Of a stretch of 39,229 nucleotides of DNA, positions 2,355 through 37,683 are shown in pieces; position 1 is the stretch's first letter; every line of letters begins with the position of its first letter. This DNA comes from a virus. The notes under the pieces are model-generated. The model was given only the letters and a program-made list of their open reading frames with translations, ran no database searches and was not told the DNA's origin. The position numbers and the translations under genes were made by a program. Location of the stretch: positions 1 through 39,229 of IMG/VR virus record IMGVR_UViG_3300023179_000242; one strand, written 5' to 3'.

Positions 2355-2456
2355 AGTCAGGTGGCGGAATTGGTAGACGCACGCATGGCTCGGCAGTAAC
2401 GTGAAGAGAGCCTGTAATTAAGTTACTGCGTACAGGTTCGAATCCTGTCCTGACTG
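2355..2456 (+). tRNA. tRNA-Leu-like element with abnormal anticodon domain
   Basis: A perfect 7-bp acceptor stem (AGTCAGG 2355-2361 with CCTGACT 2449-2455), a Leu-type D arm (GCG, loop GAATTGGTAGA, CGC) and a perfect T arm (ACAGG TTCGAAT CCTGT) are present. The 51 bases between D and T arms contain no 5-bp stem with a 7-base loop. Instead ACGCA pairs with TGCGT and AGTAAC pairs with GTTACT around a 10-base bulge and a 21-base loop. GGCTC in the bulge is complementary to GAGCC in the loop. At 102 bases it exceeds a normal tRNA-Leu (about 85-88). It could be a tRNA with an inserted segment, a tRNA mimic, or a decaying pseudo-tRNA. No anticodon can be assigned. Confidence 0.6.
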
Positions 2457-2818: not shown

Positions 2819-2889
2819 AGCCCGGTAGTGTAACTGGTAACACCCCGATTTTTTCTTGGGAGATATGGGTTCGACCCCCATCTGGGCTA
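2819..2889 (+). tRNA. tRNA, anticodon uncertain (best fold gives TTT, Lys)
   Basis: A cloverleaf of about 71 bases: acceptor AGCCCGG/CTGGGCT (one G-T), D arm GTGT-AACTGGTA-ACAC with the GG pair, anticodon arm CCCGA-TTTTTTC-TTGGG, T arm ATGGG-TTCGACC-CCCAT, discriminator A. The 7-base loop places TTT at 34-36, with an unusual T at 37 and no base 26, so the identity is not secure (TTC, Glu, is the alternative). It is antisense to, and ends one base before, the stop codon of the large terminase gene. It lies 3 bases after tRNA-like element 2. Confidence 0.65.
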
Positions 2890-4209
2890 CTACCTAAAAA
2901 TAAATTGCTTATTGTTGGCATGAAGGTCATACCGAAGGCAGTCCAAGGCATCAGCACGTTTATCAACCTTCGCCCGGCTACCTTTATCAACACCGCCATC
3001 AGGTAACGCTTTCACGAATTCGCAATCACGTATCAGCACCTTGCACTTGGGGTTGATTAGTATTTCATCGTAGTTACTGAAGATGCTATTGCATAGCCGC
3101 CGTGATTCTTGGTGCGGTGGGTTCGACCTCGGCACAAGTAGATTGTTGGTGCTGATTCGCATCCTGTCCACAATTTCCGACCACATATTTTGCCCGACCT
3201 TGGCGATGACCGACTGCTGGCGGCCTGACGCATCCCCCGTTACAAAGTACAGCCTGTTCTGCACCTGTGCTGGGGTTCGCCTAAATATTTCTTCAACCAT
3301 AGCTTCAATGAAGGTCTTGCCGTGGATATGGTCCGCCGTTAGCGTTATTTCATCGAAGTAGTGAATGAACTGCTTGCCGTCTTGGTGTCTGCCCCGATGC
3401 GCCAAGATAGCCGTGAATGGGTTGTTGTTGAAGTCAATCGAAACGTAAACTGGCATGGTGGTGTCGTAGGTTGCCTTGCCACCCACGTGCTTTTGACGGT
3501 CAAACGAATACAGCCAATTTAGCCCCGACATGGTAACCCGATTGGCCAGCACTTCACGTTTGAAAGTCAGGCTATCGTAGGTCTTTTCTAACTGTTCGAT
3601 ATAGCCTTCGGGCAGATTCGATTTATTGTCATACGTTGTGCCGATGGTGTGAGCAATCTGCTTTTCGCCCCAAATCAGTTCATCGATTTCTGGGTTGTCC
3701 ATTGGCGGTGTCATTGTCCACAAGGTTCGGGGAAACTTCGCCCCCGACATCCGGCCCATGACAATGTTCAGGCTATCAATGGCAGCGTCCTGTACTTCAT
3801 CGCCCCAGCACCAACCAAGTTCAATACCCCGTATCATTGTTTCGATGCTGAACGTAATTACCTGCGCCCCGTTCATAAACGACCAAACCCCGTTGTGCTT
3901 TTCAAACTTTGACTTGTAACCAAAGTAGCGTTCGGGGTCTTTGTTCGCCACATAATGCTCACCTTTCAATAGGCCATACGCTTCAAGTACGCCAATAAAT
4001 TCAGATAGCGTTGCCGTGTTCAGCTGGCTAACCGTATTGCTAAAAATGCCGCCCTTGATTTCGGGTTGATGAATGATATTGTGTAATGCCCAATGCGCCC
4101 CGGTTATGGTCTTGCCTGAACGAATGCCGCCGACATAAGCATACAGCCGTTCGGTTTCGCTGGCAATTAAGGTTTGGTGCTGCTTGTGGTTAAGTTCAAA
4201 CTTCTTCAT
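2890..4209 (-). CDS. terL: Terminase large subunit (packaging ATPase-nuclease), 439 aa
   Basis: The motor that pumps DNA into the prohead and cuts it. The ATPase domain shows Walker A GGIRSGKT at residues 27-34, a Walker B-like WGDEVQ at 135-140 with Asp137-Glu138, and a coupling motif TMTPP near 165-169. The C-terminal half has acidic stretches of an RNase H-like nuclease (VSIDFNNNP; VTGDASGR), as in Terminase_6/Terminase_3 families. Length is typical. It overlaps the small-subunit gene by 14 bases, and its TAG stop abuts the tRNA on the other strand. Confidence 0.93.
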   Translation of the reverse strand: MKKFELNHKQHQTLIASETERLYAYVGGIRSGKTITGAHWALHNIIHQPEIKGGIFSNTVSQLNTATLSEFIGVLEAYGLLKGEHYVANKDPERYFGYKSKFEKHNGVWSFMNGAQVITFSIETMIRGIELGWCWGDEVQDAAIDSLNIVMGRMSGAKFPRTLWTMTPPMDNPEIDELIWGEKQIAHTIGTTYDNKSNLPEGYIEQLEKTYDSLTFKREVLANRVTMSGLNWLYSFDRQKHVGGKATYDTTMPVYVSIDFNNNPFTAILAHRGRHQDGKQFIHYFDEITLTADHIHGKTFIEAMVEEIFRRTPAQVQNRLYFVTGDASGRQQSVIAKVGQNMWSEIVDRMRISTNNLLVPRSNPPHQESRRLCNSIFSNYDEILINPKCKVLIRDCEFVKALPDGGVDKGSRAKVDKRADALDCLRYDLHANNKQFIFR

Positions 4210-7186: not shown

Positions 7187-7752
7187 AACAAGTCTTTTAA
7201 TTGTTGAATTTCAAGGGGGCTAAATTTACGTTTAATTGCATTACAAAAAGCATTGACATCTACCGGGATTGTAACTTTTTCTTTTTCAAGTCCAGCTTCA
7301 ACCATAGCACGGTTTGCAGAAATCTCCTTACGAATCACTTTTTCGGCATACTCAGGTGCGTCCCTTTTTAGCTTTTTTAATTTGTAATTCCTTGAATTTC
7401 CCCTTTTTAGGAGGTTACATGTAACCTCCTCTTTTGAGTGTTGATTAGTTCCATGTTGATTAAGTGCAGCAGCCTCTTTTTCGATTTTTTCCCATAAATC
7501 AGGTCTTTCTGTTTCAATAAACGCTTTTAAAACACTATCTGTCCATCCAAGCCCCCAAGGTGTTCTGTATAATACAAAGTCCTTAAATGTATCAAATTTT
7601 ACAACAGATAGGCCGGGTATTGACCTTACCTTCCAAACCTCTGGGGAATGATAAAGCAAGTTTAATTTAGAAGCAGTATCTGCCCTTGAATTAAAATTCG
7701 CTTGATGTGTAAGCGAGTCAATTATCTTTTCGTAATCAATTATATTTTTCAT
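7183..7752 (-). CDS. KorB/ParB-like DNA-binding protein, 189 aa
   Basis: The C-terminal half carries the pattern RGNSRNYKLKKLKRDAPEYA followed by VIRKEISANRAMVEAGL, which I know from cyanobacterial, phage and plasmid proteins with a ParB/KorB-like helix-turn-helix (GNS-Y-L-RL-RDAPE-GEISA-A-AG). The N-terminal half is unassigned (GLSVVKFDTFKDFVLYRTP). It has lower GC than the initiator that follows, and overlaps the helicase by 17 bases and the initiator by 4 bases. It may be a DNA-binding accessory to the HNH-helicase or to replication. Confidence 0.6.
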   Translation of the reverse strand: MKNIIDYEKIIDSLTHQANFNSRADTASKLNLLYHSPEVWKVRSIPGLSVVKFDTFKDFVLYRTPWGLGWTDSVLKAFIETERPDLWEKIEKEAAALNQHGTNQHSKEEVTCNLLKRGNSRNYKLKKLKRDAPEYAEKVIRKEISANRAMVEAGLEKEKVTIPVDVNAFCNAIKRKFSPLEIQQLKDLL

Positions 7753-9619
7753 GATAATTGTTTAAATTTTTAGCTAATTGAAGTTTTCTTTTGAGAATCT
7801 CTAAATCATCGCATAAAGGTGAAGATTTATATTTTGGATAAACTCCGCTTTCTTTGTTTAGTCGATTATGAGTTTCTTTTATATAAAACTGCCTCATTTC
7901 TTGGTCACTAAATTTTGAATAAACGTATTTTTTTATTTGATCGTTTGTATCTTTTCTTACCGAATCAATCATTTCACGTTTAGTTTGAATTTTTTGAGGC
8001 TGCGGCTGTTTTTTTTCACCTATTCCCATAAAGTTTAGCTGTTCTGCAATCATCCTTACAAAATGAGCTTGTTGTACTGCATCATAATCTTTAATAGAAT
8101 TTTTAACAGAAGGGCACATTGTATATCCTGCGTTCATTACATTTAAATCTCCAACAGTTACCGGAACATTTTGATTGTCAAATAAATTTAACCTTTCAGA
8201 ATATTCTCCCCTTTCTCTTTTCTCTGTATATTCTTGTTCTTGGGCAGAAATTATATGCCTAATTTCATTTTCTATTTCAATGCAATGCTCAACAATTGGC
8301 AGATAATTTGGCATAAAAAAATGGCAATGGTCTATTACGCCGTTTATGTCTTTTCTGTTTCTAATGCCCCTTCCAGTAACCTGAGAAAAAAAGGTTTTCG
8401 TTGTAACATCTGTCCAATACACTATAACCCTAAGCCTTGGAATATCTACGCCTTCAGAAATCATTTGAACAGAAATAACCCACTTTGTCGTGCTTTCGGC
8501 AAACTTATCAATGTCTTCAGATGTCTGTGCTTCAGATGTAATTAAAACTGAATCGTTTGGAAACATAGCATGCAACATTTTGGCAGATTCAATACTTTGG
8601 CAAACAACAAGACCTCCAGCATTAGGCATAAAATTATTTCTAATGTCATCAAGGGCCTTGTTAGCATCATTCATAGCCCCTAAAATCCAATCATTTTTCT
8701 TAAGCAAATTGCTTAAAACGATTCTATGTTTTTCATTTTGTTTGTCTATAAATCCATCGGCAGTATATTCAGATTTTGCGTCAATGATGTTAAACAAAAT
8801 TGGGCAACAAGTTTTATCCATTACTGAGTCTCCATAGGTGTATTCAAAATCAGGTTTGCAAGTGTATGTTAAAGAATCCTTTGATTCAACATAATTAATA
8901 AAAGGTATCCTTTTAGAATCAGAACGGCTTGGTGTCCCTGACAGAGAAAGAATATATCCTGCCCTTTCGCCAATTTTTATTGCAGCCTCAGCCCAAGCAT
9001 TTTGCTCTCCTAAATGATGAACCTCATCTAAAATTACAAGTGTTTTAGGCCCTACGATATGCCCTAAAAGAACATTTAGGTTAATATCGCTAAGAGACTG
9101 ATAACTCATTGAAACGCCTTGAAATGTATTTAAAAAACTTTTAAAGTTAAATTTCTCATCAATATCTATGTCAGAAATTTCTTTAAACTTATCAGACCAA
9201 GTTTTAACGACTTTAATTGTTGGAGAAATAATTAAGTAATTCCAGCCTGCAAACTGAGGCAGCGAAGAAGCTATAATTGAAGCAATGGTTTTACCGCTAC
9301 CAACACCAGCCATACAGCAAAAAAACTTTCGCTGTTCATTGTCTTTTGTGTACTCATTATACCTTTGAGAAAATTGATTGACAAACCTTTCTTGCCAATC
9401 TCTTAAGTGAATTTGATTTTTCATTTTGTTTGATTTAGATAAATTGCATTTTGAACATAGGGCTTGGCCATTTTTAATATCCGTTTGGCCTCCCAAAGAA
9501 AACGGTATAACGTGGTCGGCATGCCAACCTTTTTCAAGTAGGGCATTGCAAACCCTACATCTTCCTCCTGCCTGAAGGAACAGCTGCTTTTTTTCATAGT
9601 CATTAAAGAATCTACGCAT
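7736..9619 (-). CDS. HNH nuclease fused to SF2 helicase, 627 aa
   Basis: Residues 1-66 are an HNH domain with CRVC (Cys21, Cys24), the catalytic-type HADH (His33, His36) and CSKC (Cys55, Cys58). From residue 72 an SF2 helicase follows: Walker A GVGSGKT 105-111, LIISPT (Ia), LDEVHHLG (II), SLSGTPSR (III), GGLVVCQSIESA (IV), SEGVDIPRLRVIVYW (V) and VTGRGIRNR (VI). All motor motifs are intact. The gene is distinctly AT-rich compared with flanking genes. Likely roles are remodelling or cutting DNA in replication/recombination, or an anti-host or anti-phage nuclease. The start at 9619 is the ATG directly before the HNH helix. Confidence 0.85.
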   Translation of the reverse strand: MRRFFNDYEKKQLFLQAGGRCRVCNALLEKGWHADHVIPFSLGGQTDIKNGQALCSKCNLSKSNKMKNQIHLRDWQERFVNQFSQRYNEYTKDNEQRKFFCCMAGVGSGKTIASIIASSLPQFAGWNYLIISPTIKVVKTWSDKFKEISDIDIDEKFNFKSFLNTFQGVSMSYQSLSDINLNVLLGHIVGPKTLVILDEVHHLGEQNAWAEAAIKIGERAGYILSLSGTPSRSDSKRIPFINYVESKDSLTYTCKPDFEYTYGDSVMDKTCCPILFNIIDAKSEYTADGFIDKQNEKHRIVLSNLLKKNDWILGAMNDANKALDDIRNNFMPNAGGLVVCQSIESAKMLHAMFPNDSVLITSEAQTSEDIDKFAESTTKWVISVQMISEGVDIPRLRVIVYWTDVTTKTFFSQVTGRGIRNRKDINGVIDHCHFFMPNYLPIVEHCIEIENEIRHIISAQEQEYTEKRERGEYSERLNLFDNQNVPVTVGDLNVMNAGYTMCPSVKNSIKDYDAVQQAHFVRMIAEQLNFMGIGEKKQPQPQKIQTKREMIDSVRKDTNDQIKKYVYSKFSDQEMRQFYIKETHNRLNKESGVYPKYKSSPLCDDLEILKRKLQLAKNLNNYHEKYN

Positions 9620-10330: not shown

Positions 10331-10561
10331 TTAAATGTTAGTAGGGTTTGACCAGTCAATCCGGTAGCTTGAATCGCTTTGCTGTTCGACTTTGAAGCCG
10401 TTGGTTCGCAGCTTTTCAATATCTTCATCAGAAATCGGGTTGAATACCCAGCAATACATTTCGCCCTGCTTGGCTTTTTCAAGGCACATGGCTTCGATTT
10501 GGGACATGGCGATTCTTGGCTTGCTGGTTGCCAAGTTGTGAAGTAGGTTTGCGTAAATCAT
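10331..10561 (-). CDS. Unknown small protein, 76 aa
   Basis: I set the start at the ATG at 10561 (MIYANLLHNLATSKPRIAMS), because the longer frame would run through the promoter at 10585-10592 and because this ATG directly follows an ACACACACACC leader as at several other early genes. The protein is helical then beta (GEMYCWVFNPISDEDIEKL). No family recognised. First gene after the operator-promoter module. Confidence 0.6.
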   Translation of the reverse strand: MIYANLLHNLATSKPRIAMSQIEAMCLEKAKQGEMYCWVFNPISDEDIEKLRTNGFKVEQQSDSSYRIDWSNPTNI

Positions 10562-10584: not shown

Positions 10585-10638
10585 CAATATTAAATAGAAT
10601 ATCAATACGAAAATCGGCATTAACACTTTTTAACACTT
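10585..10638 (-). promoter_or_regulatory. Early operator-promoter module, copy 1
   Basis: In the sense direction: paired half-sites AAGTGTTAA-AAAGTGTTAA at 10638-10620, the conserved block GATTTTCGTATTGA ending near 10602, then TAATATTG (10592-10585, close to TAnnTTTG). The leader to the first ATG contains ACACACACACC. The module lies immediately after a terminator. Confidence 0.65.
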
Positions 10639-10645
10639 GGGCATA

Positions 10646-10677
10646 AAAAGAAAAAGCCCCAACCTTTCGGCCGGGGC
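10646..10677 (-). terminator. Intrinsic terminator after ssb
   Basis: Minus-strand hairpin GCCCCGGCC-GAAA-GGTTGGGGC (9 bp with two G-T pairs, GNRA loop) followed by TTTTTC and more T. It ends the recombination operon just before the next operator. Confidence 0.85.
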
Positions 10678-10701: not shown

Positions 10702-11067
10702 TTAGAATGGCAGGTTATCGCCATCGGTTTGCAGTTCAGGTAAGCGGCCGCCGCCAGTTTCGGTGCGCATGCTGCCAAGCAGTTCAACTTGGTTCACAAG
10801 TACCTTGATGTCGTTGCCGATTTTGTCGTTGCCTTCTTTGTCCTTGTAAACGTCAAGAACAGGCCGACCGCTGATATACACTTGCGTGCCCTTGCTTAGG
10901 TATTTGGCAACCCCGGCTGGATTGCCGTCTTTGCCAAAAAGCGTGCAGCGAAACCATTGGGTTTCTTCGCCTTTGCCGACCGCCACCGAAAAGGTGGTGA
11001 TGTCTTTGTTTTTGCCGACTAACTCAGCATCTTTGCCGATACGGCCGATTAATTGTAGTTGTAACAT
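10702..11067 (-). CDS. ssb: Single-stranded DNA-binding protein, 121 aa
   Basis: An OB-fold SSB: MLQLQLIGRIGKDAEL at the N-terminus, WFRCTLFG and KYLSKGTQVYISGRP in the core, all typical SSB positions. The C-terminus ends DGDNLPF, a variant of the acidic tip that binds partner proteins. It is short, with little linker. As the last gene of the ERF/exonuclease operon it would coat strands made by the exonuclease. Confidence 0.95.
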   Translation of the reverse strand: MLQLQLIGRIGKDAELVGKNKDITTFSVAVGKGEETQWFRCTLFGKDGNPAGVAKYLSKGTQVYISGRPVLDVYKDKEGNDKIGNDIKVLVNQVELLGSMRTETGGGRLPELQTDGDNLPF

Positions 11068-11070
11068 GGT

Positions 11071-11379
11071 TTATTTGGTTTTGATTAGTTTCTTACGTTG
11101 AATTGCTTTGCTTACGATGTGCTGGCCGATTTCTTTGCCGTCCATTGACAGCCAAGATAGCAGATGTTTAAGGTCGGCCGACTGGTTGGCGCACGTGCCT
11201 ATAATCAGTTCGCCCTTCTGCTCATTTTGGGTAATAGCAATCGAAGCGGTTGCCGTTTCTTTGTCGGGGTATGACCTGACAATAATCGGCACATCTAAAT
11301 AGGTTGGCCGAATCATTTGTGCCCAACTGCCGTCTTTGACTTGCTCAAAGCCCAGCTGTTCTAATTGGTTTTTGTTCAT
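11071..11379 (-). CDS. Unknown small protein, 102 aa
   Basis: Starts MNKNQLEQLGFEQVKDGSWA, with a beta-rich middle (TYLDVPIIVRSYPDKETATA) and a basic C-terminus (RKKLIKTK). No recognised family. It sits 3 bases before ssb in the recombination operon and its start follows an ACACACA-type leader, which may give it independent translation. Confidence 0.6.
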   Translation of the reverse strand: MNKNQLEQLGFEQVKDGSWAQMIRPTYLDVPIIVRSYPDKETATASIAITQNEQKGELIIGTCANQSADLKHLLSWLSMDGKEIGQHIVSKAIQRKKLIKTK

Positions 11380-11391
11380 GGTTTGTGTGTG

Positions 11392-11862
11392 TTAATTGTA
11401 ATTAATTGATGTGAAGGTAAAGTTATTTTTATTCAAATCCAATTCTTGCATGACCATTTTTATATGCTCGCAAAATTCGATGCACTTCATGTAATATTGG
11501 GGGTCGGCCAGTATTGAATCCTGCACAAATTTCATGCTGTGCATAACCGTTGCATGGCCGCAGTTCAGCATCTTGCCGATTTCTTGTAGGCTCATTGACG
11601 TAGCGCAGCGCATCGCAAACCTCATGGCATGCTTGAAATGTTTAACCTCTCTAAACCTTCGCTTACTGTATGCGGCCTCATAAGGCAGCCTCCAGTAATC
11701 GGCAGCGGCTTTGATAACCGCCCGTTGATGTTCGGTTTTCAGGTGCATCTTAAAATACTCATCGTTCCGGCTGTTGATTATCCGGTCAATTTCAATGCGA
11801 ATTTCAAGCAGCCTATCGTTGTTTTGTTTTAACAAATAGCGTTCAAATTGTCGGTCTGTCAT
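11392..11862 (-). CDS. DnaA domain IV-like DNA-binding protein, 156 aa
   Basis: Residues 45-115 resemble the C-terminal DNA-binding domain of DnaA: SKRRFREVKHFKHAMRFAMR aligns with the helix SRKREIVxARQIAMYLxR, and SLQEIGKMLNCGHATVMHSM (91-110) with the DnaA signature SLxEIGxxFGGRDHTTVLHA. The AAA+ domain is absent, so it cannot hydrolyse ATP. It may bind a DnaA-box-like origin sequence or regulate host or phage replication. It overlaps the exonuclease gene by 4 bases. Confidence 0.75.
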   Translation of the reverse strand: MTDRQFERYLLKQNNDRLLEIRIEIDRIINSRNDEYFKMHLKTEHQRAVIKAAADYWRLPYEAAYSKRRFREVKHFKHAMRFAMRCATSMSLQEIGKMLNCGHATVMHSMKFVQDSILADPQYYMKCIEFCEHIKMVMQELDLNKNNFTFTSINYN

Positions 11863-12470
11863 TGCAATTGTGGTAAAAGTTCAATTTTGATAATGTTTCG
11901 GCACATCTGCACTCGTTCGTAGATAGCCTGAATTGTCGGCTCATGGTAGTAGATGTCAAATACCTTCAACCGATATTTGGCTGGGATATTTGTCAAGTCA
12001 ACCTGAATGCCGCCAAGTTCTTCAGGGGTTGGCATTAAAACGTACACCAGCTGGGCCCGTTTAAGCCCCAACAGGTGCATGTACCCCTGCAATTGATACC
12101 AATATCCCTTCGGTGGGTTTCGATCCCACATTGGGAAGGTAAACACATCCCAAGGGCATTTGATGTCAACAACGGTGTTGCCGTGAATAACGTCAGGTGT
12201 CCCGGTCAAGAATTCGTTTTCAAAAAGGGTTTCGTTTTTCTCAGGCATAAACCAATTCAGATGTTGCCCGGCGAATTCAATGGCGGCATCTTCGACCATT
12301 CGGCCTTTTTCCATTGGTCGGCTGTCAATCTGCCTGCGCACCCCGTATATCTGCTCCACAATCCAATCTTGTAGGTACGAATAGCACGTTGCCCCGGCGG
12401 TGTCCTTCCCCCTGCCATTGGCCATAATTTGACCAATGGCAGAACATCTGATTTTGAAATCTTGCATCAA
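11859..12470 (-). CDS. YqaJ/lambda-exonuclease-type recombination exonuclease, 203 aa
   Basis: A PD-(D/E)xK nuclease: Glu60 in the helix EKGRMVEDAAIEF, Asp93 in LTGTPDVI, Asp102-x-Lys104 in VDIKCPWD, and Gln128 in YWYQLQGYM. It degrades one strand of duplex ends and hands the remaining strand to the ERF annealing protein, the classic two-gene phage recombination pair. The second catalytic acid is Asp and not the usual Glu. It overlaps both neighbours by 4 bases. Confidence 0.88.
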   Translation of the reverse strand: MMQDFKIRCSAIGQIMANGRGKDTAGATCYSYLQDWIVEQIYGVRRQIDSRPMEKGRMVEDAAIEFAGQHLNWFMPEKNETLFENEFLTGTPDVIHGNTVVDIKCPWDVFTFPMWDRNPPKGYWYQLQGYMHLLGLKRAQLVYVLMPTPEELGGIQVDLTNIPAKYRLKVFDIYYHEPTIQAIYERVQMCRNIIKIELLPQLQ

Positions 12471-13108
12471 TTCAATTGTTTGATGTAGATGTCGATTGCC
12501 TTCTTCACCGTTGCCTCATCTTTCGCCCAAGATTTGACGTAAATGCAATCGGCATCTACAAACGGGTTAGCCTTTTCTTTGCTAACCTCAGGCAGTTGCT
12601 GGCTGATGTCATATAAGGTGTTGACCAGTTCTTGCTGGGGATCAGGCAGCGTCAAGAAATCAATCACTACTGGCTTGGCCGCAACCTCATAAGTATTGGC
12701 ATCTGCATCCTTTAGTTCTTCGGTAGGTATCAACAGCATCTGCATCAGGCAGTATTTCAACGCTGCGCTCATGGCTTTGTTCGTTGATTTGTCTGCACTG
12801 TCCATTGCCTCGCCTTCGGTAACGCTTGATACAAAGCTGCCGTCCGATGCGTAAAAGGTAAATTTGACGGTCAAAATGGTGTAAATCAAAACACCGCCCT
12901 TGGCCGTAGTGCGTTCTTCACGATGCCGCCCGATTACTTCGCTGGTGATGAATACACCATGTTTTGCAAATAGTGGGTGAATGGCATTGTAAAGGTCATC
13001 GATACCTCTAAAGTTGTAGCCTTGTTGCTGGTTTTTCTTGTTTTTGCCGATTGCTCCGCAGTCAGCCATGATTGCCGTTAAGGCTTCAAAGATTGGTGTT
13101 GTTTTCAT
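12467..13108 (-). CDS. erf: ERF family single-strand annealing protein, 213 aa
   Basis: The N-terminal 140 residues match the ERF family: an opening helix, GYNFRGIDDLYNAIHPLFAKHG, then SVTEGEAMDSADKSTNKAMSAA (two quoted segments of the core) and LKYCLMQMLLIP. ERF proteins anneal complementary single strands in phage recombination and genome circularisation. The C-terminal part is variable. It sits upstream of the exonuclease, overlapping it by 4 bases. Confidence 0.92.
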   Translation of the reverse strand: MKTTPIFEALTAIMADCGAIGKNKKNQQQGYNFRGIDDLYNAIHPLFAKHGVFITSEVIGRHREERTTAKGGVLIYTILTVKFTFYASDGSFVSSVTEGEAMDSADKSTNKAMSAALKYCLMQMLLIPTEELKDADANTYEVAAKPVVIDFLTLPDPQQELVNTLYDISQQLPEVSKEKANPFVDADCIYVKSWAKDEATVKKAIDIYIKQLN

Positions 13109-13299
13109 GGGTGTTGTTTGTAAAAGGTGATTAAATTAGAAAGAACGATGTTTGCTTGCCGCATTACCATTTCGCTGGGTATCAACGGGGGCTGCGACCT
13201 GAATGTTGCGAATAGTATCGGCCTACCTTTGTCGGGCTTGCCGATGATTTGGATTTTGTTGCCGCCAACAAGCGGCGATTCGATTAGGGTGATTTTCAT
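13105..13299 (-). CDS. Unknown small protein, first gene of the recombination operon, 64 aa
   Basis: Starts MKITLIESPLVGGNKIQIIG, a basic beta-rich N-terminus followed by a helix (EMVMRQANIVLSNLITFYKQ). No membrane segment or known motif. It is directly downstream of operator-promoter copy 2 and overlaps erf by 4 bases. Confidence 0.6.
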   Translation of the reverse strand: MKITLIESPLVGGNKIQIIGKPDKGRPILFATFRSQPPLIPSEMVMRQANIVLSNLITFYKQHP

Positions 13300-13318: not shown

Positions 13319-13373
13319 CAAACCTAATAGTTATTTCAACACGAAATCAACAACAAGTGTTAAAAAGTGTTAA
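13319..13373 (-). promoter_or_regulatory. Early operator-promoter module, copy 2
   Basis: Sense direction: TTAACACTTTTTAACACTT (13373-13355, the operator pair in inverted orientation relative to copies 1 and 4), GATTTCGTGTTGAA (13348-13335), then TAGGTTTG (13326-13319), a match to TAnnTTTG. It drives the 64-aa/ERF/exonuclease/SSB operon. Confidence 0.7.
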
Positions 13374-13424: not shown

Positions 13425-13871
13425 TTAATTGTTAAGATATTTTCTGAACGCCTGAATTATGTCTATAAACAAGTTGGTCATCCTTGTTTCATGATTAATC
13501 ATTTTCAACAAAAATTCTTCAGCGTTTAAGTCGTTTTTGGTTTCTGCATTAGAATCAGTCTTAATGTTTTTTTCTTCTTGCTTAGGCTTTGTTTTGTAAT
13601 TGTGGTTTAATTTTTTTTTGTAATGATAATAATCTGCTGCCGAATTAACAATAAGTTCGTTTTCTTTTTTCTGGTCCATTTCTACCCAATGATCGCAATC
13701 GTTTATCCTTTCAATAAGGCCTTGTTTTTGCATGATTCTAATTAAAGCATCTCCAACTTGGGCAGCCCTTGCTATTTCTTTTCTTGACAAACAGGTTGGC
13801 AAATGCTTTTGGGACTGCGTCAAAGTTTTGACGACTTGAATCCTTTCGTTTAGCGGTTTTTTGTTTTTCAT
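13425..13871 (-). CDS. Possible winged-helix regulator, 148 aa
   Basis: A Lys/Asn-rich protein from AT-rich DNA. Residues 10-55 (QKHLPTCLSRKEIARAAQVG then DALIRIMQKQGLIERI) read like a winged helix: SRKEIARAAQ-type recognition helix and a QGLIE turn. The middle is a charged low-complexity linker, and the C-terminus (EEFLLKMINHETRMTNLFID) is helical. It is alone in its transcription unit, between operator copies 2 and 3, which is where a phage regulator of the circuit might be expected. Function is inferred. Confidence 0.55.
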   Translation of the reverse strand: MKNKKPLNERIQVVKTLTQSQKHLPTCLSRKEIARAAQVGDALIRIMQKQGLIERINDCDHWVEMDQKKENELIVNSAADYYHYKKKLNHNYKTKPKQEEKNIKTDSNAETKNDLNAEEFLLKMINHETRMTNLFIDIIQAFRKYLNN

Positions 13872-13907: not shown

Positions 13908-13952
13908 CAAACCTAATAGTTATTTCAACACGAAAATGTTAAAAAGTGTTAA
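13908..13952 (-). promoter_or_regulatory. Early operator-promoter module, copy 3
   Basis: Sense direction: TTAACACTTTTTAACATT (13952-13935; the second half-site differs by one base), ATTTTCGTGTTGAA (13937-13924), TAGGTTTG (13915-13908), then a leader with ACACACACA before the ATG at 13871. The core of 20 bases around TTCAACACG-ACCTAATAG is identical to copy 2. Confidence 0.7.
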
Positions 13953-13954
13953 AA

Positions 13955-13980
13955 CAAAAAAGCCCCGATGCGGGGCTTCG
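13955..13980 (-). terminator. Intrinsic terminator after the holin gene
   Basis: Minus-strand hairpin AAGCCCCG-CAT-CGGGGCTT (8 bp) followed by TTTT. It closes the head/holin transcription unit and abuts operator copy 3. Confidence 0.85.
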
Positions 13981-23800: not shown

Positions 23801-23977
23801 TTAGAATTTGAAATCAAGATTTTTTGCCATTGCCCTTTTTTGCATTACCTTTTCTATGCCACGCTGTTCGGCTTCGGGCAGGCTTAGTTTTTCGTATTTG
23901 ATTGCAAAGTCAACATTAGCCTTAAACAATGCTTTTTCTACCGAATTGAAGTTGAATTTTTGTGCGATTGCGTTCAT
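23801..23977 (-). CDS. Unknown small helical protein, 58 aa
   Basis: ATG 23977 to TAA 23801 encodes MNAIAQKFNFNSVEKALFKA, then NVDFAIKYEKLSLPEAEQRG and IEKVMQKRAMAKNLDFKF. It is helical and basic. It follows an early-type leader (ACAAACACACACAATT before the ATG) and is the first gene after operator-promoter copy 4, which strongly suggests that it is expressed and under the same control as the early genes. Confidence 0.7.
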   Translation of the reverse strand: MNAIAQKFNFNSVEKALFKANVDFAIKYEKLSLPEAEQRGIEKVMQKRAMAKNLDFKF

Positions 23978-24008: not shown

Positions 24009-24073
24009 CAATATTAAGGCTTTTTTCAATACGAAAATCAGCACCCCCACTATTTTAACACTTTTTAACACTT
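24009..24073 (-). promoter_or_regulatory. Early operator-promoter module, copy 4
   Basis: Sense direction: AAGTGTTAAAAAGTGTTAA (24073-24055), GATTTTCGTATTGAA (24039-24025), TAATATTG (24016-24009), leader rich in CA. Copies 1 and 4 share the same operator orientation and the same -7 element although they lie 13 kb apart. Confidence 0.7.
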
Positions 24074-24688: not shown

Positions 24689-24730
24689 AGAACGCATACC
24701 CATACTTTCGTTTAATTGTCGCTATAAATG

Positions 24731-24738
24731 TAACTTTG
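24731..24738 (+). promoter_or_regulatory. Promoter -7 element for the plus-strand regulator-glycosyltransferase pair
   Basis: TAACTTTG, exact TAnnTTTG, with TTCG about 20 bases upstream. Only 5 bases separate it from the ATG at 24744, so the mRNA should be leaderless or nearly so. Confidence 0.55.
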
Positions 24739-24743
24739 TCGCT

Positions 24744-25103
24744 ATGGACATCAGCCATTTGTCGCTTGCTGAACTTTTTGACCTGAAATCTGCGGTCAAT
24801 AAGGCTATAAATCACCGCATTTCATCCGCCGCCGATGACTTTATTTGGCAACTTTGCGCCCATTACGGCGTTGAACTGAGCCAATTCAAGCAAGCAAGTA
24901 GGCGGCAGTATGCGGATATTAAGCGAATCGCATCGTATTACTTCGTGTCAATGAAAGGTTTAAGCCAAACCGAAGCGGCAGAAATAATCGGCATCAGCCG
25001 GGTAACGGTTGCCCAGCACGTGGCGAAGGTTCAACATTACAAGCGTTCAATCCCCGGCAAATGGTTTGCCATATTCAACACAATCCAATCCGTAACAAAA
25101 TGA
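24744..25103 (+). CDS. DnaA domain IV-like / HTH regulator, 119 aa
   Basis: Residues 50-100 (ASRRQYADIKRIASYYFVSM, then GLSQTEAAEIIGISRVTVAQ, HVAKVQHYKR) align by pattern with the DnaA C-terminal domain: basic helix, GLS-x-EI-x-IG turn, and a T-V-x-H recognition helix. No ATPase domain. Residues 1-45 are helical. It overlaps the GT8-like gene by 4 bases (ATGA at 25100-25103). It may regulate the glycosyltransferase or the divergent structural gene. A second protein of this type is at 11392-11862. Confidence 0.65.
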   Translation: MDISHLSLAELFDLKSAVNKAINHRISSAADDFIWQLCAHYGVELSQFKQASRRQYADIKRIASYYFVSMKGLSQTEAAEIIGISRVTVAQHVAKVQHYKRSIPGKWFAIFNTIQSVTK

Positions 25104-25732
25104 AACCAGTAGCAGTAACCCTCGGCATCGGCGATTATTTGAAATACGCTGAAAAATCGGCAGAACTTGTCCGCAAACACATGGGCCTTGAAACCCGAAT
25201 AATAACAGATGAACACCTTGGCCATGCCTTGCGAATGTCTAAATTTAATCATTCGGTTTGGACGCTAAAGTATAAGATATGGGATATTTTCCCCGACCTT
25301 GACTTGGTGATGTATCATGATTGCGACTGGCGGCCTGTTCGGGATTTTGATTTGGCAGATTATTTGCCCGATTTTAAGGACGTTTACTTTTGCCTTGATC
25401 GGGACAATGACCATACCCGTAGCCTTGAACAGCAATACCGACTAAAGCCTTCAACCTATTTCAATGCCGGCTGGTTTGTAGCCAACCGCAAGCATAAGCC
25501 TGTCTTTGATTTCTGTTACAAAAACTACTTTAGATACGAAAACAAATGGGGTGACCAATGCGTATCAAATCAGGTCTTTAAATACTTGGTAACGCTGGCA
25601 GATAAACGATTGAATGTAATGGATATTGGGACAAATATCCCCAATGAAGAAGTGCTGGCTTTTCACTCAGCATTAAACTACGCTGTTTACGAAGGCAAAG
25701 AACCCTGCCAAATTACTGGCAAATTTATTTAA
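25100..25732 (+). CDS. GT8-like glycosyltransferase, 210 aa
   Basis: Start set at the ATG at 25100, overlapping the upstream stop, because the sequence before it lacks homology to the enzyme. Family marks: strand KPVAVTLGIGDY, metal-binding DCD at Asp74-Asp76 (LVMYHDCDWRPV), STYFNAGWFV (118-127), DQ at 152-153, and a C-terminal FHS. It would transfer a sugar from a nucleotide donor, probably to a virion or host surface target. It is read convergently against a DUF115-like gene with an 8-base overlap. Confidence 0.7.
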   Translation: MKPVAVTLGIGDYLKYAEKSAELVRKHMGLETRIITDEHLGHALRMSKFNHSVWTLKYKIWDIFPDLDLVMYHDCDWRPVRDFDLADYLPDFKDVYFCLDRDNDHTRSLEQQYRLKPSTYFNAGWFVANRKHKPVFDFCYKNYFRYENKWGDQCVSNQVFKYLVTLADKRLNVMDIGTNIPNEEVLAFHSALNYAVYEGKEPCQITGKFI

Positions 25733-35596: not shown

Positions 35597-36171
35597 TGTG
35601 CTTTGCTGAATTTGTTCAAATATACAGAAGAATCGGCAAAACATGGTGATGAAATTTTTACATAGGCATCTTTCTTGCCAAGTATCGCACTCCACAACTT
35701 GCCTCCCCACCATTTGCCGGGACGCTGCCAATATCCCACCACGTTCAATTGGTAATCGGTTTCAATGGTAACAACTGCCGGGCTGTCAGGATGCACAATT
35801 GCGGCAAATTTCATGCACATTGTGTCAAGTTTGAATGACTGAATCGGGCATGGCAAGGTTTCGATATGCCACCTATCAACCTCCACCTCAAAGGTATCGA
35901 TCTTGGTGCGCCACTTGGTGCGATGAACGAATTCAACACGACTACCTTTGATGTTCAAGCTATCAAGTAACTGCTGATTTTCTTCCCGTAATTGCTGATT
36001 TGTCAAGGTTAATGTTCGGGCGGTTGCCGATGCCGTCTGCTGAATTGCATCGTAATTGCTGGCATGCCGTTCGGCCTCGGCCTTGTAATTGCATGACTGC
36101 TTACCTAATATGAAAGCGGCAATCAAAGCAATAATGCCCCAATGCTTAAATATAAACCCCGTCCAGTTCAT
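35593..36171 (-). CDS. Inner-membrane spanin-like (Rz-like) protein, 192 aa
   Basis: An N-terminal membrane anchor (residues 7-25, IFKHWGIIALIAAFILGKQS) followed by a coiled coil (residues 30-75: YDAIQQTASATARTLTLTNQ, QLREENQQLLDSLNI) and a C-terminal soluble domain. This is the shape of an i-spanin that bridges the cell wall in the last lysis step, but the family is not certain and no outer lipoprotein gene is evident. It overlaps the phosphatase gene by 4 bases. Confidence 0.55.
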   Translation of the reverse strand: MNWTGFIFKHWGIIALIAAFILGKQSCNYKAEAERHASNYDAIQQTASATARTLTLTNQQLREENQQLLDSLNIKGSRVEFVHRTKWRTKIDTFEVEVDRWHIETLPCPIQSFKLDTMCMKFAAIVHPDSPAVVTIETDYQLNVVGYWQRPGKWWGGKLWSAILGKKDAYVKISSPCFADSSVYLNKFSKAQ

Positions 36172-37202
36172 CGTACTTTGCGATTGTCAATTCTAAAGTT
36201 CTCAACGCTGAAGTTGCCATCATCTTCAACCTCAACAATAGCCGCACCGTGATTCCACTTGGTAAATGCGAATGGCCGATACGCTGGGCGAAGGTCGCAA
36301 AGGCAACCCGTAGAAAAGCAAGCAACCCCTTTGCCGTTCAGGTCGCTTTCGTGATGCTCAGATGTTTGGTGATTGTGCCCTGCCAAGGTAGATGCTTTGC
36401 CACGCAAGAACAATCCCCGTGCTGGGTTTACCGGGCTGAATATGCTATCCCCAAATTCGTGGCCGTGAATCACGTTTAGTTTGCCGAACTTGGCCACTTG
36501 TTTGCTGTCGATAATTTCGATTTCAAATTCATCCAAGCCAAGAACCTTTTTTAGTTGCAACCCGTCAAGGCCGTGCAGTTCAGGTGCGTTTTGCAAGATG
36601 TAACGCTCCCACCTGTCCTCATGGTTGCCCAACTTGTAGTAAACATCAACCCCCAAATTGGCAATCCCCTCAAAGAAGTTTCTTGCCATGCCAACCTCAA
36701 CAACGGCAGAAGTAATGGCTGGGTCTTTTTCCCAACGGCTAATCTTGGCGAAGTCAATCACATCACCGTTCAGGTAAATACCGTCAATGCCTGAATTGAA
36801 CCCGTAATCAATAGCCGTTTCTAATGCTTCTAATGAATGGTAGGGGATATGTATATCGGATAGCACCAACACCTTTTTGTGAACCTTCGGCAAATGCCAA
36901 TCGGGTTTGTTGGTAACTTCGCCACGCTGCAAGAAGTTCGCCATATATTCGCTGGGCTTCATTTCATCACGAACAAACTCAGGGCGTAGTTTGCCTGAAT
37001 TGTTGGCAATTTTGCGTTTTAATTGTCCGTTAGCCCCTATGCGATACCTAATGTTTTTTCGCACGTTGTCAATTTCTTTGTCGGTTTGCTCAAAGATGCC
37101 GGGGTTTTCGGCCACGATTTTACGTGCTAATGTTCTTGTAAAGAAGCCCGGTTGTTGTTCATCAAGATATTTCTCAATGATTTCACTTTTTTGTTTACTC
37201 AT
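36168..37202 (-). CDS. Calcineurin-like metallophosphatase, 344 aa
   Basis: The two-metal phosphoesterase motifs are present: SDIHIP (Asp116, His118), NGDVIDF (Asp147, Asp150), LGNHEDRW (Asn193, His194, Glu195, Asp196), HGHEFG and AGHNHQT. The first 105 residues form a separate helical, HTH-like domain. Phage enzymes of this type may act on nucleotides, DNA ends or host signals. Substrate unknown. It has an exact TTTG-N17-TACTTTTG promoter upstream. Confidence 0.85.
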   Translation of the reverse strand: MSKQKSEIIEKYLDEQQPGFFTRTLARKIVAENPGIFEQTDKEIDNVRKNIRYRIGANGQLKRKIANNSGKLRPEFVRDEMKPSEYMANFLQRGEVTNKPDWHLPKVHKKVLVLSDIHIPYHSLEALETAIDYGFNSGIDGIYLNGDVIDFAKISRWEKDPAITSAVVEVGMARNFFEGIANLGVDVYYKLGNHEDRWERYILQNAPELHGLDGLQLKKVLGLDEFEIEIIDSKQVAKFGKLNVIHGHEFGDSIFSPVNPARGLFLRGKASTLAGHNHQTSEHHESDLNGKGVACFSTGCLCDLRPAYRPFAFTKWNHGAAIVEVEDDGNFSVENFRIDNRKVR

Positions 37203-37222: not shown

Positions 37223-37251
37223 CAAAAGTAGCAAAAATGCAATAGGCCAAA
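37223..37251 (-). promoter_or_regulatory. Promoter of the phosphatase-spanin operon
   Basis: On the minus strand TTTG (37251-37248), a 17-base spacer, and TACTTTTG (37230-37223), followed by 20 bases to the ATG at 37202. Both elements match the Bacteroidota consensus. Confidence 0.65.
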
Positions 37252-37257
37252 CTTTTT

Positions 37258-37683
37258 TTAACATTTCTTAACGGTTGCCCACCATTTACGTGCGTCAAAA
37301 CAAGGGCAGGCTTTGGCCACGTTTGGGAAGTCCCGATGCCCCAATACCTCAGCACTTGGGAATTGCTTTGCAAGTTTGTTCACCAATTCAGCCATTGCCT
37401 TACGCTGTTCTTTGGTGCGGTTGTCGGTAGGGTTGCCAATTGCATCAATGCCGCCAATGTAACTGATGTTGATGCTGTCGTGATTATGCCCCTTCACCCC
37501 GTTGCTTGGTTTAGTGATTGGCCAGTTCTCAACGATTGTGCCGTCCCGTTCAATGATGAAGTGGTAGCCGGGCGATTGCCAGTTCAGCACCTTTTTGTGG
37601 TAGCGGTTGATACTGTCTGCCGTTGCCGTTATTGCGCTGGCGGTCGTGTGTAAAACAATGTGGTTAATTGGTCGCATCTTCAA
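37258..37683 (-). CDS. N-acetylmuramoyl-L-alanine amidase (endolysin), 141 aa
   Basis: An amidase_2 / T7 lysozyme-type enzyme: zinc ligands His12 (IVLHTTAS), His116 (LGHRDF) and Cys126 (KACPCFD), catalytic-type Tyr40 (GYHFIIERDG) and Lys124. It cleaves the link between muramic acid and the stem peptide to lyse the cell. No signal peptide, so export needs the holin, which is located far away at 14025-14447. It overlaps the preceding gene by 20 bases. Confidence 0.93.
   Translation of the reverse strand: MKMRPINHIVLHTTASAITATADSINRYHKKVLNWQSPGYHFIIERDGTIVENWPITKPSNGVKGHNHDSINISYIGGIDAIGNPTDNRTKEQRKAMAELVNKLAKQFPSAEVLGHRDFPNVAKACPCFDARKWWATVKKC

Follow-up and report, generated by a model that had tools for sequence, protein, structure and literature searches.

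Paired AAGTGTTAA half-sites before phage operons as candidate sites of a host RprY-type regulator

Host OmpR-family regulators at phage and bacterial promoters

Bacteroidota are a dominant phylum in the gut and in wastewater, and transcription control in their phages is poorly known. The nearest known case to the promoters described here is the use of host PhoB by cyanophages, in which the host regulator binds Pho boxes of the phage (Zeng and Chisholm 2012, as cited in PMC10976474), with S-PM2d cyanophage as a further example (PMC10976474). As is proposed here, cyanophage genes carry sites of a host OmpR-family regulator and are thereby under the control of a host two-component system, which was shown for PhoB by gel shift and RNA-seq. 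Cyanophages rely on PhoB under phosphate limitation, whereas here the regulator would be RprY-like, the phylum is Bacteroidota, and the operons are those of Erf, SSB and a helicase. Unlike the cyanophage Pho boxes, the sites described here fall into helical-turn spacing classes and are widely spread over viral contigs. The ArcA boxes of Escherichia coli are comparable in that ArcA belongs to the OmpR family and that the boxes are direct repeats spaced by roughly a helical turn; phylum, promoter type and regulon differ.

Among bacterial regulons, that of the OmpR-family regulator PhoP of Riemerella anatipestifer shows further similarities. Its DAP-seq motif, in which TTTAACA is most conserved, resembles that of ArcA; the protein binds ahead of moxR and of the operon that encodes it, and Bat operon genes are lowered in a phoP mutant (PMC9603813). 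Family, TTTAACA motif and targets (own operon and moxR/Bat) are thus alike, with the differences that this is a bacterial regulon rather than a set of phage promoters and that orthology to RprY is putative. RprX/RprY of Bacteroides fragilis, where rprXY is essential (PMC4072883), and RprY of Porphyromonas gingivalis belong to the regulator family that we link here to the box. The P. gingivalis protein differs in being without a linked kinase and in being described mainly as a repressor, binding its own promoter and stress genes (PMC3646045; PMC5706477). No RprY binding-site sequence was found in the literature searched, and the present analysis supplies a likely RprY box for this essential, little understood two-component system.

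The sites in question lie in a stretch of viral DNA of 39,229 nucleotides, analysed at its full length and called the window below. We consider it very probable that the paired AAGTGTTAA half-sites in this window, placed before phage operons, are bound by an RprY-type OmpR-family regulator of the host (the output half of RprX/RprY), which activates these operons. Host RprY or a local equivalent, partly active in the infected cell, would occupy the half-sites as a tandem dimer, on the side of the helix that RNA polymerase also faces, and would recruit the polymerase to phage promoters that have a -7 box without a good -33 box. The phage would have placed this operator ahead of its recombination and replication operons and a few other genes. 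This yields a testable rule, namely the operator of a host stress regulator at set helical-turn distances from the -7 box, ahead of phage replication operons.

Promoter modules in the window and their genes

Direct reading of the sequence confirmed that the repeats are real. Four modules (M1 to M4) are found, all on the minus strand, which is the coding strand of nearly all genes in the window, and each runs in the order intrinsic terminator, 19-mer, spacer, CGTRTTGA, nine bases, -7 box and gene start. The 19-mer consists of two TGTTAA half-sites spaced 10 bp, present as AAGTGTTAAAAAGTGTTAA or its reverse complement. A preliminary description of the site at 10585-10638, which is M1, had claimed that four copies share an upstream terminator, paired half-sites with 10-base spacing and a CGTrTTGA core, and that copies 1 and 4 have the operator in the opposite orientation to copies 2 and 3; we recover each of these features in all four modules (M1 and M4 forward, M2 and M3 reverse). 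It missed a fifth, degenerate module, M5, in which the operator reads CGTTAA-N4-TGTTAA. The terminators of M1 to M3 are in the terminator listing, while the hairpin of M4 was read from the sequence, as were the cores and -7 boxes of M2 to M4, the -7 box of M5 and the 58-aa gene below. The features are as follows.

10656..10677, minus strand: intrinsic terminator upstream of M1, closing the SSB operon
10620..10638, minus strand: M1 operator AAGTGTTAAAAAGTGTTAA, forward, 27 bp to the -7 box
10602..10609, minus strand: M1 core CGTATTGA, 17 bases ahead of the -7 box
10585..10592, minus strand: M1 -7 box TAATATTG (Bacteroidota consensus TAnnTTTG)
13355..13373, minus strand: M2 operator TTAACACTTTTTAACACTT, reverse, 28 bp to the -7 box
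13336..13343, minus strand: M2 core CGTGTTGA
13319..13326, minus strand: M2 -7 box TAGGTTTG
13959..13979, minus strand: intrinsic terminator upstream of M3
13934..13952, minus strand: M3 operator TTAACACTTTTTAACATTT, reverse (the reverse complement of the 19-mer with one change), 18 bp to the -7 box
13925..13932, minus strand: M3 core CGTGTTGA
13908..13915, minus strand: M3 -7 box TAGGTTTG
24055..24073, minus strand: M4 operator AAGTGTTAAAAAGTGTTAA, forward, 38 bp to the -7 box
24026..24033, minus strand: M4 core CGTATTGA
24009..24016, minus strand: M4 -7 box TAATATTG
37258..37276, minus strand: M5 operator AACCGTTAAGAAATGTTAA, degenerate, forward, 27 bp to TACTTTTG, without a core
37223..37230, minus strand: M5 -7 box TACTTTTG
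10331..10561, minus strand: 76-aa gene, first after M1
7736-9619, minus strand: gene for a 627-aa fusion of an HNH endonuclease with a ResIII/DEAD-type helicase
10702..13299, minus strand: M2 operon, with a 64-aa gene, Erf annealing protein, exonuclease, DnaA-C-domain protein, a 102-aa gene and SSB
13425..13871, minus strand: 148-aa gene under M3
23801..23977, minus strand: 58-aa gene, the first one downstream of M4, with the next operon following on from it
36168..37202, minus strand: metallophosphoesterase gene after M5

The -7 consensus TAnnTTTG is matched exactly in M2, M3 and M5, with TAATATTG in its place in M1 and M4. The usual place of a -33 TTTG, some 19 bases ahead of the -7 box, is taken by GATT, TGAT, CATT and GATT in M1 to M4, which fits activator-dependent promoters. 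Half-sites AAGTGTTAA with at most one mismatch occur 29 times in the window, compared to 14.1 +/- 4.2 in shuffles. For a relaxed box (at least 10/12) with an in-phase -7 box, 0.25 occurrences are expected in shuffles, and the window holds five modules at 11/12 or better.

With operon extents inferred from gene order and terminators, M1 to M4 mainly target DNA recombination and replication genes, which appear to be plugged into a host signalling circuit. Downstream of M1, to about 5.6 kb, the 76-aa gene is followed by genes for the HNH-helicase and for DnaD-like and DnaC-like loader proteins, and M4 heads a run of small genes. A recognisable DNA-binding domain was looked for in the 148-aa protein under M3, and none was found. 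The 156-aa protein of the M2 operon (11392-11862, minus strand) has a Bac_DnaA_C DNA-binding domain without the ATPase part.

Helical phasing and conservation in related phages

Between the end of the 19-mer and the -7 box, the distance d amounts to 27, 28, 18 and 38 in M1, M2, M3 and M4, respectively, and in the modules of relatives it is limited to 18, 27, 28, 38 and 49, values (18, 27/28, 38 and 49) that correspond to steps of one helical turn. That the operator moves relative to the box by whole turns only had escaped the preliminary description. Forward and reverse sites each keep a separate, constant phase, with half-site centres at 30/40 for forward and 34/44 for reverse sites; both would fit a single protein face if the protein mass were offset by 2-3 bp from the half-site centre.

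Conservation was assessed in SSB loci of relatives, picked by SSB protein and not by motif (36 contigs). An identical 19-mer follows SSB in 34 of these 36 contigs, with diverging flanking bases; the relatives therefore keep the repeats and not the genes alone, the opposite pattern having been named beforehand as one that would speak against the modules. At this orthologous promoter d is either 27 or 49, that is, two turns apart. The remaining contigs (L129 and L131) have no 19-mer at the place of M1 after SSB; another insert, which has a hairpin of its own, is present there. There is good support for the earlier proposal of a coordinated regulon, taken as a set of promoters with a common operator.

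The -7-like element had also been placed at a fixed distance of 16 bases from the core. We observe that the distance is constant in M1 to M4, the figure being 17 bases start to start. The CGTRTTGA core is kept in, and specific to, this phage group, mainly as GTATTG; it is absent from M5 and from host promoters, with no counterpart at those of rprX, and it may be a second operator. Searching for the core together with a -7 box at the correct gap gave many scattered matches. A reading of the core as a TTTC-N5-GAAA palindrome (a CI-type repressor site) was rejected, since the arms seen in the window are not kept in relatives. Replication-origin iterons were likewise set aside, as there are two copies per site, each directly ahead of a -7 box and a gene start.

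DNA comparison found no relatives among named phages. The phage terminase shows only distant similarity, to Salinibacter and other phages, and a prophage search of host genomes with this protein gave matches of 31-32%, in one genome only.

The operator in host genomes and in other viral contigs

The exact 19-mer was found in 95 stretches across 84,980 species genomes, mostly of Bacteroidota and intergenic. These host 19-mers stand upstream of -7 boxes at 18-19, 26-29, 38-39 and 49 bp, with 27 non-redundant boxes compared to about 4-5 expected from background density, and they are phased (Rayleigh p=1e-5 at a preset 10.5 bp). Several precede histidine-kinase genes followed by genes for OmpR-family regulators, and another lies ahead of a MoxR-like ATPase gene (L191). 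For the five linked regulators, the best NCBIfam match is RprY, at 220-320 bits, which in all five is below the curated RprY cut-off of 370; the next best matches score 148-179, and the RprY scores are well ahead of those for PhoB. An RprY-type regulator is present in 46 of 60 sampled Bacteroidia genomes.

When RprY operons were sampled over Bacteroidota, TGTTAA-N4-TGTTAA was found at 11/12 or better in 24 of the 38 rprX upstream regions with a callable kinase start, compared to 0.2 expected from shuffles. The boxes are nearly always located 27-29 bp ahead of TAnnTTT(G/A), and several further rprX regions have a 10/12 box in the same place. As controls, we used six non-RprY kinase promoters, a small set, and, as a second one, a set of 387 upstream regions from two-component loci; 26 of the 387 have the box, and 25 of these 26 are rprXY. 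A strict search for the 19-mer with a -7 box in 395 genomes of the phylum returned two seed genomes only, because host boxes are more degenerate, which the TGTTAA-N4-TGTTAA form resolved.

A different host OmpR-family regulator, such as PhoB, could also be the partner, as PhoB-type proteins likewise recognise direct repeats with a spacing of one turn, and PhoB is the host regulator used by cyanophages (PMC10976474). We consider this highly improbable, since rprX promoters mostly carry the box, whereas only one PhoB-like gene with a box occurs among the 387 upstream regions and 15 PhoB upstream stretches gave best matches of 8-11/14, with no strong site.

The link to RprY-type regulators is also seen in a blind scan of 119 Bacteroidia genomes for the forward box, 27 bp and TANNTTTG, which gave 20 matches, 15 of them directly before rprX, which encodes the kinase of RprXY (14 assigned by sequence and one by its position ahead of a known rprY), compared to 2 matches for a control shifted by 5 bp (d=32). 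The reverse box at d=28 gave 15 matches, seven of which are ahead of moxR-like ATPase genes (L812, L814, L816, L817, L818, L825 and L826), which suggests that what would be the same regulator has moxR operons among its conserved targets. The phage distances of 18, 27, 28, 38 and 49 share the host spacings, 27-29 forward at rprX and 28 reverse at moxR. Forward sites at 27 bp (M1) copy the geometry of the host rprXY promoter, and reverse sites at 28 bp (M2) that of the host moxR (Bat) stress promoter.

UP elements are A/T-rich subsites for the C-terminal domains of RNA polymerase alpha, spaced by a helical turn, and displaced UP subsites act in helical steps too. The box at d=27 sits at the classical UP position, so helical-turn spacing could be explained in this way. 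This is extremely doubtful, since G and C positions are conserved, both orientations are present, each with its own spacing rule, and UP elements would be expected at many promoters per genome, whereas the 119 genomes hold only 20 occurrences of the strict pattern, with 15 at a single operon. The narrow host target set (rprX and moxR) thus argues against a general polymerase element.

A host regulator could also bind these sites and repress, which would silence phage operons under host stress, in line with the description of P. gingivalis RprY as a repressor of chaperone genes (PMC3646045). We regard this as unlikely. The sites are found at whole-turn steps ahead of the -7 box, the promoters have no -33 box of good quality, and loss of phoP in Riemerella lowers the Bat operon (PMC9603813), in which moxR has the reverse d=28 geometry in Bacteroidia. 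Activation by an RprY-type regulator agrees better with these features. Phage expression would then be timed by the host regulator, with a possible benefit such as sensing of host state or infection stress.

The box is not restricted to this phage group. At least 120 stretches of IMG/VR carry the forward box with d=27, compared to 30 at 32 bp, and at least 119 carry the reverse box at 28 bp, compared to 4 at 23 bp; each total is a minimum, and the contigs listed include some that are closely related to one another. Among the matches listed, 118 of 121 forward sites are intergenic and 103 lie ahead of an ORF within 160 bases (47 protein families), whereas only 2 of 30 shifted (32 bp) sites do so; for reverse sites, the matches listed have 80 downstream families. 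No kinase-like genes were found downstream of the boxes among the matches listed, and sampled box-bearing contigs have terminase, portal, tape-measure or primase genes. On a separate phage contig (L014), a reverse site with d=18 precedes an Erf gene. For named isolates, 3 of 11 have any match to the d=27 pattern at up to two mismatches: in Parabacteroides phage PM682P3 there are four sites, at one or two mismatches, and an annotated gene begins shortly after each of them, while B124-14 and P12024L have one site each, with two mismatches. Parabacteroides merdae and PM682P3 thus form a laboratory pair with such sites. Many further Bacteroidota phages seem to use the same host circuit. The broader proposal is that wiring to host RprX/RprY is a widespread and repeatedly acquired strategy of Bacteroidota phages, including those with large genomes, with expression following, and perhaps triggered by, the host envelope or oxidative stress response; we see the case for and against it as evenly balanced.

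The preliminary description had named a phage protein as the probable controller, and on this point its interpretation, partly supported as a whole, is not supported. A phage-encoded regulator (the 119-aa HTH protein, the 148-aa protein or another) that binds AAGTGTTAA pairs in a private regulon would account for sites recurring before several operons of one phage, and the 119-aa protein has an HTH_3 match. Nevertheless, the operator matches, in geometry and sequence, the site found at the same distance before bacterial rprX and moxR; the same box precedes unrelated genes in many other phages; and the 119-aa HTH gene adjoins different repeats, TTGTCGCTAT. Furthermore, a profile of five RprY-type regulators found no OmpR-family regulator in six frames of the window and related loci, nor did a search of the window with the RprY-type DNA-binding half alone. 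A phage regulator is therefore very unlikely; judged by sequence, the operator very probably belongs to the host, and the controller is most likely a host response regulator.

The 119-aa HTH_3 protein is encoded on the plus strand, and the two TTGTCGCTAT repeats (approximately 24713-24745) lie right before its gene start, possibly as an operator of this protein. The few plus-strand genes also include one with a glycosyltransferase family 8 match (25061-25732). In addition, ARAGORN and Rfam both call a tRNA-Lys (2819-2890, plus strand). A further tRNA-like gene (2355-2456, plus strand) is called by Rfam only, at 37.9 bits, and follows a promoter with -33 and -7 boxes that has a weak half-box (2295-2303).
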